Shown: positions 38,411-46,980 of the stretch, piece by piece
Numbering within the stretch: the first letter of the stretch is position 1
Layout of the letters: each line of letters starts with the position of its first letter
Source: Phyllobacterium zundukense
GTDB taxonomy: Bacteria; Pseudomonadota; Alphaproteobacteria; Rhizobiales; Rhizobiaceae
Direction: 5' to 3'
NCBI RefSeq assembly: GCF_025452195.1
Contig: NZ_CP104973.1
Location: 186,001 to 250,000 of the forward strand
DNA: 64,000 nt
The notes under the pieces: generated by a model
The model's input: the letters and a program-made list of their open reading frames with translations, nothing else
Databases searched by the model: none
What the model was told of the DNA's origin: nothing
Translations under genes and position numbers: made by a program

Positions 38411-38773
38411 ATACAACTGCGCAACCGCCTAACAGCGAAACGTTTCAACCGGGCGTTCGTGGCGCCGTTGCCTCAACCAAGCGATGAAGTGAGAGCATTT
38501 CAGTTTGGAGGCAGAAGCAGTCGCACCGAGCCAGCCGGTGCGTCGAAGGCGATTGGCCACTTCGACCGCGGCAACGGCCTTGCTTCCAACTTGGAGGTAA
38601 AGCGATGTGGTGCAAACCATATAGCGTTACCCTCGTCATAAAAAGAACCCGGACAGGCTGGTCAATGTCTTTCCGGGTTCACTTTATGAAATGAGGAATG
38701 GGGGCGGACGTAAGTCTGTCCCCGCTCCAAGCTCCAACATAACAGTTCCGCGGATTTTTCCAAGTTTCAAATG
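38411..38773 (+). repeat. Structured microprotein element, copy 1 (tandem with copy 2)
   Basis: Bases about 38411-38773 recur almost unchanged 397 bases downstream (copy 2) and, more diverged, on the opposite strand at 46675-46980 (copy 3). Ordered parts: leader hairpin GCACCG...CGGTGC (38523-38541), GGAGGT Shine-Dalgarno, 29-codon ORF (38605-38694) with an internal hairpin AACCCGGA...TCCGGGTT (38646-38679), then a 10-bp hairpin with a GTAA loop (38700-38723), and a TCCGCGGA dyad followed by TTTTT (38747-38759). The intergenic region 38344-39306 holds nothing else. Confidence 0.8.
38605..38694 (+). CDS. Conserved 29-residue basic microprotein, copy 1
   Basis: ATG at 38605 follows GGAGGT by 6 bases; TGA ends at 38694. 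Residues 5-13 read PYSVTLVIK and 14-19 RTRTGW, then a segment containing SFRVHF. It is strongly basic and alternates polar and hydrophobic residues on either side of the RTRTGW turn, as in a beta-hairpin. Copies 2 and 3 keep exactly 29 residues. Between copies 1 and 3 many changes are synonymous (GTT/GTA, CTC/CTT, ACA/ACG) or conservative (Y/F, V/I, R/K). The family is not recognised. Confidence 0.55.
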   Translation: MWCKPYSVTLVIKRTRTGWSMSFRVHFMK

Positions 38774-38807
38774 CCCTGTGTTTCTGGCTCTTTCGCTGAA
38801 CGCTGAA

Positions 38808-39173
38808 GGACAACCGTGCAACCGATTGTTTGCAAAGCGTTTCAACTTGGCGTTCGTTGCCTTGGCTCGTGAAGCAAGCGATGAACTGAGAGCATTCAGT
38901 TTGGAGGCAGAAGCAGTCTGCACCGAGCCAGCCGGTGCATCGAAGGCGATTGGCCACTTCGACCGCGGCAACGGCCTTGCTTCCAACTTGGAGGTAAAGC
39001 GATGTGGTGCAAACCATATAGCGTTACCCTCGTCATAAAAAGAACCCGGACAGGCTGGCAAGTCTCGTTCCGGGTTCATTTTATGAAATGAGGAATGGGG
39101 GCGGACGAAAGTCTGTCCCCGCTCCAAGCTCCAACATAACAGTTCCGCGGATTTTTCCAAGTTTCAAATACGC
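38808..39173 (+). repeat. Structured microprotein element, copy 2
   Basis: This tandem copy of 38411-38773 is offset by 397 bases. The leader hairpin is at 38920-38938, the ORF at 39002-39091, the in-ORF hairpin at 39043-39076 and the post-ORF hairpin at 39097-39120, whose loop is GAAA in place of GTAA. The leader upstream of the leader hairpin and the second half of the ORF differ most between the copies, while the hairpin stems are kept. Confidence 0.8.
39002..39091 (+). CDS. Conserved 29-residue basic microprotein, copy 2
   Basis: Same length and start as copy 1, with the same GGAGGT Shine-Dalgarno 6 bases before the ATG. It differs from copy 1 only at residues 20-21 (WQVSF instead of WSMSF). 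The reading frame is preserved through the altered stretch, where copies 1 and 2 differ at several adjacent bases without an indel, which supports coding. Confidence 0.55.
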   Translation: MWCKPYSVTLVIKRTRTGWQVSFRVHFMK

Positions 39174-39378
39174 TAAACAGGGGTGGACGGCGCGCAACAG
39201 AAGATTATCCTGCGGCCAACTTTGTTTGAGGCTGGTGGGACATTGGGGCGATGATAGTTAGTGATGCTTTTCCAGATGGCTTCCACAATGGCGAAAAGCT
39301 CCGCTCATGTATGCCGCTTCGACAACGTCCTCTCAAATATTATACGCAGTGGCTCTCCCGACTCTCCAACGGTTCCCG

Positions 39379-40506: not shown

Positions 40507-40583
40507 TGGTACGGACGGGTGGGCTCGAACCACCGACCTCAGGAGCCACAATCCTGCGCTCTAACCAACTGAGCTACGACCGC
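40507..40583 (-). tRNA. tRNA-His (anticodon GTG)
   Basis: The minus strand folds as a tRNA of 77 bases with an encoded CCA. The anticodon loop TTGTGGC gives GTG (His), the D-arm GCTCAGTTGGTTAGAGC and the T-loop TTCGAGC are standard. The base before position 1 is T and the discriminator is A, so the usual G-1:C73 identity pair is missing. The first pair is G1-U72, with an apparent U-U mismatch within the acceptor stem. This is the pattern known for an alphaproteobacterial subset with divergent HisRS. Confidence 0.92.
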
Positions 40584-46674: not shown

Positions 46675-46980
46675 GCTCTTGGAAACTCGCGAGAAGATGT
46701 TATAGTCTTGGGGCAGAGGATGAGCTTTCGCCCACCCTCCGTTCCTTATCTAAAGACGTGAACCCGGACGGTCACTGACCAGGTCGTCCGGGTTTTCTTT
46801 AAGATAAGGGTTACGCTAAACGGCATGTACCGCATAGTTTCACCTCCAAGTTTGAGGCAAGGCTCTTGCCGCAGTCGGGGGAGCCTATCTTCCCCGATAC
46901 ACCGCTGGCCCGGTGTTGCTGCTTCGCCATCAAACCGTTTGCGCGTTAACGCCATTTCTCATCTATTGCTTGGTTTGATG
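46675..46980 (-). repeat. Structured microprotein element, copy 3 (diverged)
   Basis: On the minus strand this repeats the order of copies 1-2: leader hairpin ACACCG...CGGTGT (46899-46916), GGAGGT, ORF (46746-46835), in-ORF hairpin AACCCGGACG...CGTCCGGGTT (46761-46794) and a 10-bp post-ORF hairpin with a GAAA loop (46716-46739). Compared with copy 1, the last stem changes G-C to A-T, C-G to T-A and A-T to G-C at three paired positions, so the pairing is kept by compensatory change. It lies downstream of potI on the same strand; 46655-47046 holds no other gene. Confidence 0.75.
46746..46835 (-). CDS. Conserved 29-residue basic microprotein, copy 3
   Basis: ATG at 46835 follows GGAGGTG by 6 bases; the stop ends at 46746. 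It has the same 29 residues in length as copies 1 and 2. Shared positions are P5, S7-V-T-L10, K13, T15-R-T17, W19 and R24-V-H26; differences are mostly conservative (Y to F, V to I, R to K, F to V). The upstream frame is open but without support. The function is unknown. Confidence 0.55.
   Translation of the reverse strand: MRYMPFSVTLILKKTRTTWSVTVRVHVFR

Follow-up and report, generated by a model that had tools for sequence, protein, structure and literature searches.

Two tandem copies of one element lie in the window, which is the whole stretch of 64,000 nt from the Phyllobacterium zundukense genome that was analysed here, and a third copy is found on the minus strand of the same window (Table 1). 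Self-comparison places the tandem copies at an offset of 397, just as the earlier note had it, and resolves them into a block of 255 nt that is 96% identical (38523-38777 and 38920-39174) and, further upstream, a block of 87 nt at 74% (38413-38499 and 38810-38896). The leader hairpin, the GGAGGT ribosome site, the 29-residue open reading frame (ORF) and the hairpin inside it, all of which had been described before, are present in both copies, and so is the GNRA-type loop after the stop, which reads GUAA in copy 1 and GAAA in copy 2.

Two parts of that first account need adjustment. It held that the copies have diverged outside the conserved parts; within the 255-nt block, however, the pair differs at only ~4% of positions, so that conservation is argued here from distant copies, which do show it. 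As for the structure, the leader hairpin is real, but it was the only leader helix seen, and an antisense transcription unit was missed.

The window copies are not alone. BLAST gives 11 matches to the element in this genome (6.41 Mb), while a covariance model built from 11 of its copies (model R1) gives 13 matches at E <= 7e-30, all on a single 3.87-Mb contig, and 4 further weak echoes on the opposite strand (E 0.14-0.44). The tandem pair belongs to a cassette that is widespread, and unannotated, among rhizobia and their relatives.

Table 1. Position, strand and basis of the cassette features in the window
Feature	Position	Strand	Basis or detail
Copy 1, upstream motif CAAC..GCGTTCGTKG	38446..38462	+	alignment of 26 genus leaders
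Copy 1, closing helix P1, 5' strand	38505..38513	+	leader folds, mapping
Copy 1, leader hairpin H1	38523..38541	+	covariation
Copy 1, leader hairpin H2	38543..38565	+	covariation
Copy 1, kissing loops (H2 loop with H3 loop)	38555-38558 with 38576-38579	+	covariation
Copy 1, leader hairpin H3	38570..38584	+	covariation
Copy 1, P1 3' strand, alternatively pairing with the Shine-Dalgarno (anti-SD)	38581..38589	+	mapping, predicted fold
Copy 1, Shine-Dalgarno GGAGGT	38593..38598	+	sequence
Copy 1, ORF MWCKPYSVTLVIKRTRTGWSMSFRVHFMK	38605..38694	+	translation, frame conservation, codon statistics
Copy 1, hairpin inside the ORF	38636..38689	.	stem pairing, predicted fold
Copy 1, the ORF hairpin on the minus strand, then T-rich tract TTCTTTTT		-	reads as intrinsic terminator
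Copy 1, post-stop hairpin (on the minus strand, 5' hairpin of the predicted antisense RNA)	38700..38723	.	
Copy 1, predicted antisense RNA, ends approximate	38637..38732	-	
Copy 1, antisense promoter	38736..38764	-	-35 CTTGGA 38764-38759, -10 TTATGT/TATGTT 38742-38736
Copy 2, upstream motif	38843..38859	+	sequence, leader alignment
Copy 2, leader junction P1/H1/H2/H3 (H1 38920-38938)	38901..38986	+	leader model
Copy 2, Shine-Dalgarno	38990..38995	+	sequence
Copy 2, ORF MWCKPYSVTLVIKRTRTGWQVSFRVHFMK	39002..39091	+	translation, frame conservation, codon statistics
Copy 2, ORF hairpin / antisense terminator	39033..39086	.	self-comparison, predicted fold
Copy 2, post-stop hairpin with GAAA loop	39097..39120	.	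sequence
Copy 2, predicted antisense RNA, ends approximate	39034..39129	-	
Copy 2, antisense promoter	39133..39161	-	
Copy 3, leader and core	46678..46949	-	covariance and leader models
Copy 3, ORF MRYMPFSVTLILKKTRTTWSVTVRVHVFR	46746..46835	-	

The leader and the reading frame

The leader is a four-helix junction in which P1 closes the structure, H1, H2 and H3 follow, and the Shine-Dalgarno sequence comes next. This arrangement was drawn from 143 leaders (alignment A8), with 12 of 154 candidates dropped beforehand, ten because their 5' end was misplaced or long and two (L074 and L156) by choice. Covariation was tested with one misaligned leader removed, against a null in which the substitutions were replayed on the tree (25 null alignments, about 190,000 scores). 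Nine column pairs (E 5e-9 to 0.03) exceed the largest null score; they fall in H1, H2 and H3 and in the kissing contact between the H2 and H3 loops, and one, 77-86, competes with that contact. The pairs of P1 are individually weaker under the tree null, the best having an E of about 0.10 and the next 0.23, with 0.49 for the extension pair 23-91.

All nine pairs fit one or the other of two folds. In fold A, which has H3 and the kissing loops, 91.9% of the cells are paired and 22 of 26 pairs show double changes, with a covariation score of 0.459 against 0.228 for shuffled alignments. In fold B, with an extended P1 and an alternative H3, the corresponding values are 88.8%, 23 of 24, and 0.487 against 0.230. 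Both folds beat shuffles and slides, with scores that are inflated by related rows and by the reading of the structure from the same alignment. Columns 68/77/86 and 23/83/91 of A8 covary as triplets, which can be understood as base triples or as two exclusive folds. The Shine-Dalgarno is an alternative partner for the 3' strand of P1, and the fold predicted for copy 1 has it masked; across the 143 leaders, the energy of this anti-SD pairing falls below that of shuffles of the strand in 107 cases (mean -3.9 vs -2.8 kcal/mol).

This leader is the best conserved part of the cassette. The leader model and R1 match the same 13 places in the genome, so in this genome the leader is dedicated to the ORF, and a riboswitch for neighbouring genes was rejected as a candidate on the same count. 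At the 45 loci fetched by the leader model the ORF is present in 39, and the six that lack it include frameshifted, read-through and decayed copies. Upstream of the junction stands the motif CAAC..GCGTTCGTKG, conserved in the genus, a conservation that was not seen in the 30 other leaders aligned alongside; it is possibly an operator or part of the sense promoter. When a sigma-70 promoter was sought on the sense strand, 9 of 143 leaders reached 9 of the 12 consensus letters (shuffles, 2.3%), with none among the 36 of the genus.

Does the frame encode a protein? The answer was sought in 131 distinct copies found by model, with no exact pattern required; they come from 100 sources, and nine fetched loci (L336-L344), 24 of 127 rows that were cut or echoes, and identical copies were left out. 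An ORF of 24-36 codons that starts beside the Shine-Dalgarno is found in 123 of them, and in 106 of these it encodes 28-30 residues. The signature R..W occurs in 119 of the 123, at least two of the remaining four having a different frame. As a control, a run of 27 open codons is found in 6 and 27 of the 123 for the two shifted sense frames, and in 44, 29 and 1 for those on the antisense strand. The exact pattern used elsewhere in this work fixes most letters of codons 15-25, and therefore codon statistics were taken from the model-found set: outside the hairpin codons dN/dS is 0.36, compared with 0.86 +/- 0.22 for a column-shuffled null in which none of 60 shuffles is as low. Judged by its codons, the ORF is a real gene under selection.

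Thus, covariation and frame conservation, whose joint absence the earlier note had named as grounds for rejecting its proposal, are both present, and those grounds fall away. Its central claim, that a structured RNA has been duplicated, also codes for a conserved peptide and belongs to no recognised family, is borne out by the present data, in which no matching family was found.

With regard to the peptide, 75 of 76 non-redundant sequences keep P5 and 69 keep L10; R16..W19 was a condition for inclusion in this table, so the conservation of these two residues is uninformative there. Positions 6, 8, 10, 12 and 21, 23, 25, 27 are hydrophobic, with polar residues in between, and the 212 distinct peptides have a mean net charge of +5, alternating hydropathy and a GRAVY of 0.19. 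AlphaFold2, given 49 homologues, places two strands at 5-14 and 19-28 (mean pLDDT 82, pTM 0.33), and the peptide is accordingly predicted to be a cationic amphipathic beta-hairpin. Comparison of the 30-residue model with PDB folds returned no match at E <= 0.001, a result that is uninformative at this size.

The opposite strand

At its end the conserved block carries TTTCCAAG or TTTCAAG, letters that spell CTTG(G)AAA on the opposite strand. There they stand mostly 16-17 nt before TATAT, a combination that reads as an alphaproteobacterial promoter of the sigma-70 type. The antisense strand has at least 9 of the 12 consensus letters in 93 of the 131 copies; the sense strand reaches this in 6 of 131, and shuffles in 4.3%. 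In 104 of 131 copies the antisense -10 sits at one fixed place, give or take a base. Since R1 itself contains the promoter columns, the test was repeated on loci selected by their leader: among 45 fetched loci picked by the leader model alone, the antisense promoter is present in 31, the sense strand gives 2, and the shuffles 4.2%.

The other end of this unit lies within the codons. Among the 87 of 131 copies that have the standard stem letters, a U tract (at least 5 U in the 8 nt after the stem) is found on the antisense side in 58 and on the sense side in 11. The stem survives double changes, pair 48-69 being GC in 74 copies, CG in 17 and broken in none of 91, and in another family it is swapped for the unrelated GCGGACC/GGTCCGC, with the hairpin, the W and the VRI.F end all retained. 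Two K/R codons before the stem supply the U tract; consequently, protein and terminator share letters. By these features the ORF hairpin reads as the intrinsic terminator of a predicted opposite-strand transcript whose promoter and terminator are both conserved. That transcript would open with the hairpin after the stop, and with such an antisense unit this hairpin and the one in the ORF would each gain a function.

Copies with an intact ORF and copies with a broken one were also compared: the antisense promoter scores above 7 in 216 of 242 of the former and in 21 of 27 of the latter, a difference that is not significant (p 0.11). The score is weak in 26 of the 242 intact ORFs.

Genomes, plasmids and gene-transfer-agent clusters

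R1 finds 2-13 copies of the cassette in each of the 20 Phyllobacterium genomes searched, and its occurrence is patchy further out. The model also matches in 1 of 3 genomes from the family's other genera and in 1 of 16 from other families, and a larger sample of the family has the cassette in 41 of 199 genomes and 27 of 109 genera. Wide model searches returned 2 of 41 genomes in the order (this one and G032), 1 of 289 in the class and 1 of 150 in the phylum, this genome in both cases. Absence in these wide searches is weak evidence, since their strict filters lose weak matches; the class search regains 9 of the 13 copies of this very genome.

An exact pattern scan gave at least 117 genome stretches, plus 33 in viral contigs, and the matches listed include Rhizobium, Aureimonas, Microvirga, Mesorhizobium, Methylobacterium, Roseibium, Maricaulis and Alkalicaulis. 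R1 matches at all 150 of the listed loci, and, with 8 opposite-strand echo matches dropped, in 20 of the 150 there is a neighbour on the same strand within 700 nt (start-to-start 275-620, up to four copies). Plasmids are another home: matches at E <= 0.01 occur in 31 records (14 from Sinorhizobium), and none of the 31 has an annotated feature under the match, in a gene table that is incomplete by its own statement.

A further setting is the cluster of the gene-transfer agent (GTA). One or both of the GTA genes g14 and g15 stand beside the cassette at 26 of the 33 loci from the viral collection (IMG/VR; L174-L206) and at 9 of the 117 genome loci listed (L066, L068, L074, L090, L100, L110, L141, L146 and L166). 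In Rhizobium-type genomes the cassette sits repeatedly in the gap between g14 and g15, on the opposite strand and in up to four tandem copies. At two Phyllobacterium-type loci (L206, 6119-6690, and L087, 1387-1558) it sits between a terminase and a portal gene, again on the opposite strand. This terminase and portal are homologous to those of the GTA loci L178, L184 and L200 (56-64%), by which the terminase/portal gap is a second gap of the same kind of GTA cluster; for the same reason, a reading of L206 as a prophage was dropped. The Pfam domains at the GTA loci are NLPC_P60, GTA_TIM, Rcc01698_C, Terminase_6 and Phage_portal. At the tested loci of the present genome (about 3 kb each), none of the four GTA genes (g14, g15, terminase, portal) was found.

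A phage origin was also considered and rejected, because the only phage record, MW462191.1 (L234, "Bacteriophage sp."), has bacterial housekeeping genes around its copies. They include genes for ETF-ubiquinone oxidoreductase and AMP nucleosidase, and the record looks like a bacterial contig.

One chromosomal site, between a response-regulator gene and an AbrB-like gene, can be compared across relatives, with G003 and G011 left out. Two copies are found there in this genome and in G008, G018 and G010, one in G002 and G001, and none in G006, where about 220 nt of other DNA replaces the cassette (L241, about 1137-1361 of the oriented strand). The tandem pair of this genome forms one group and the first copies of G008, G018 and G010 form another, a pattern suggestive of gene conversion or re-duplication. 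Had the element been rightly called mobile? Its multicopy and patchy occurrence, and the counts of two, one and none at this syntenic site, agree with the term, but no transposition signature was found, and the self-comparison lists no inverted repeats framing the element.

Other RNAs occur near some copies. In the window, a tRNA (40510-40583, minus strand) and a match to the ar14 sRNA (RF02344; 40672-40788, minus strand, just above the Rfam threshold) lie beside the AbrB-like gene, and the same pair is present in the relative at L241. One genomic copy has a cobalamin riboswitch immediately downstream (L009, 1809-2022).

A possible toxin-antitoxin-like cassette and its known counterparts

What could such a cassette do? 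The answer we favour, with moderate confidence, is a type I toxin-antitoxin-like module, made of a translation-locked peptide mRNA and an antisense RNA. It draws on the small ORF, the antisense gene that ends within it, the predicted masking of the Shine-Dalgarno, the alternative folds, the tandem and multicopy arrangement and the patchy spread. Type I toxins are short ORFs (under about 60 residues) with their own Shine-Dalgarno and coding selection, and all of this is found here; an overlapping antisense gene with a promoter and terminator of its own, as in type I systems, is found too, as far as the nucleotides tell.

Each copy would be a self-contained cassette of about 320 bp. The sense mRNA would begin with the junction leader and its kissing loops, with GGAGG directly after it and then the peptide ORF of 28-30 codons. 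The last leader strand would have two alternative partners, the 5' strand of the junction, a pairing that leaves the ribosome site free, and the Shine-Dalgarno, a pairing that masks it, so that translation would be set by a fold switch. From the sigma-70-type promoter, about 42-70 nt past the stop, an antisense RNA of roughly 95 nt would be produced, with a 5' hairpin and a terminator hairpin. Ending inside the ORF, it would be able to base-pair with the 3' UTR and the later part of the ORF, and it would block or destroy the peptide mRNA. We infer that both RNAs are made and that the antisense RNA represses; the peptide, if over-made, would be harmful, probably at the membrane, and the module would be kept by addiction or act as a conditional brake. 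The antisense RNA probably keeps the peptide off, as in toxin-antitoxin pairs.

Several observations speak against this reading. The peptide is a predicted beta-hairpin and not the hydrophobic single-span helix that is usual, although not universal, in type I toxins. The sense promoter is not recognisable, and there is no significant link between ORF intactness and the antisense promoter, which is weak in some intact copies, where a strict need for an antitoxin predicts otherwise. As for the fold switch, the anti-SD pairing does better than shuffles in only 107 of 143 leaders, and P1, the helix that would free the Shine-Dalgarno, is without a strongly covarying pair under the tree null. Lastly, the leader is conserved more strongly than a plain mask of the ribosome site requires.

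A different proposal is that the peptide is no toxin: the leader would sense a ligand, an ion, the ribosome or an RNA-binding protein and gate the output of a small regulatory beta-hairpin peptide, the antisense RNA only setting its level. The primacy of the leader in conservation would suit such a regulatory switch, as would a short and basic peptide, and the exclusive folds both covary (83-91 at E 0.004 vs 23-91 at E 0.49; 77-86 at E 2e-4 vs 68-86 at E 0.03) and both score well as structures. Yet the leader heads no other gene in this genome, 13 of 13 being with the cassette, and a copy number from 0 to 13 among related genomes is odd for a sensor; we regard this proposal as doubtful, if one to be reckoned with. 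Could the antisense transcript be the real actor, a multicopy trans-acting sRNA for which the ORF is a decoy or sponge? The antisense promoter does outlive the ORF, 21 of 27 broken-ORF copies still scoring above 7, but a decoy has no use for a leader and a Shine-Dalgarno, nor would one expect a dN/dS of 0.36 outside the stem and a nearly fixed length of 28-30 codons, which makes this explanation unlikely.

Conservation of the frame, selection at the codon level and the conserved promoter and terminator count against a selfish intergenic repeat (REP, RIME-like or MITE-like) with an incidental frame. Dispersed copies, tandem arrays and the varying copy number at the syntenic site are what such a repeat would give, and still, with no framing inverted repeats listed in the self-comparison, we consider it very improbable. 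More improbable yet is a leader peptide or attenuator for a downstream gene: a short ORF with hairpins, lying between genes, has the look of one, but the orientation is free of the neighbours and, in GTA clusters, opposite to the genes on both sides.

A broader view goes beyond the toxin-antitoxin-like module, and we offer it tentatively. The cassette might be a gene-control cassette of a new class, in which a kissing-loop RNA switch serves one beta-hairpin peptide and an antisense RNA is terminated within the codons of that peptide, carried singly or in tandem on alphaproteobacterial chromosomes, on plasmids and in GTA clusters; its placement in the latter, opposite to the genes and in two gaps (terminase/portal and g14/g15), may guard or time the cluster.

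Whichever reading holds, multicopy, presumably RNA-guarded peptide genes have gone largely unannotated in a well-studied bacterial order, only one copy among those examined having its ORF in a public record, as a hypothetical protein (QRI43784.1). A toxic peptide would make this an alphaproteobacterial family of type I toxins that has a beta-hairpin fold; with a harmless one, a riboswitch-sized leader would be serving a single micropeptide. In either case the two exclusive folds of the leader and the antisense terminator embedded in the ORF are open to direct test, and the position inside GTA clusters ties the cassette to gene-transfer agents.

How does the cassette compare with what is known? 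None of 49 peptides has a match below E 0.01 in Pfam, NCBIfam, PHROGs or PADLOC; the best (E 0.015) is to a PHROG without function, and each hit is seen in at most 2 of the 49. The peptide profile found nothing among PDB sequences up to E 1. YrzI (TIGR02413, PF09501) is also a family of small ORFs, matched by one member at E 0.021 and by one at 0.13; a match in 1 of 49 is at chance level and is no evidence of kinship. In Rfam, searched with the whole window and 6 loci, nothing falls on the element. This includes ar14 (RF02344) which, like other alphaproteobacterial sRNAs, comes from the same bacteria but has no match on the element. Ref1C, an Enterococcus sRNA, was considered for the antisense strand of one of 8 loci (L198, 4627-4758, minus strand; E 5.6e-5 when this stretch was searched alone) and set aside as a likeness of two hairpins, at 42.1 bits against a threshold of 90. 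BASRCI27 (RF02600), a Brucella sRNA family, scores above threshold in L293 (41-219; 71.4 bits) and was rejected as well, because the match covers the 5' neighbour and has ~20 nt in common with the leader. It lies directly upstream of the leader, just touching it, and its first hairpin resembles a rhizobial palindromic repeat.

Among the type I systems, the Ldr/Fst and Ibs/Sib families have ORFs of about 20-35 residues, antisense RNAs and tandem copies, like the cassette. Its peptides differ from theirs in sequence and predicted fold, with no Pfam or NCBIfam match below E 0.02. BsrG/SR4 and TxpA/RatA are, again like the cassette, pairs in which the two RNAs overlap at the 3' part of the toxin mRNA, but these systems are from Bacillus and their peptides are hydrophobic.

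In the literature covered, of which most subscription papers and all supplements lie outside, no paper is recognisable as describing the cassette (PMC10117765, PMC3927594, PMC3738593 and PMC12390103, each in the part available). A system described there does resemble it. In AapA/IsoA of Helicobacter pylori, according to PMC6733600, an upstream anti-SD masks the Shine-Dalgarno in metastable hairpins. The tiny ORF, the overlapping antisense RNA and the alternative folds are shared with the cassette, for which masking of the Shine-Dalgarno from upstream is predicted as well. The cassette departs from AapA/IsoA in having a predicted beta-hairpin and not a transmembrane helix as its peptide, a conserved junction with kissing loops as its leader, and an antisense terminator placed inside the ORF.
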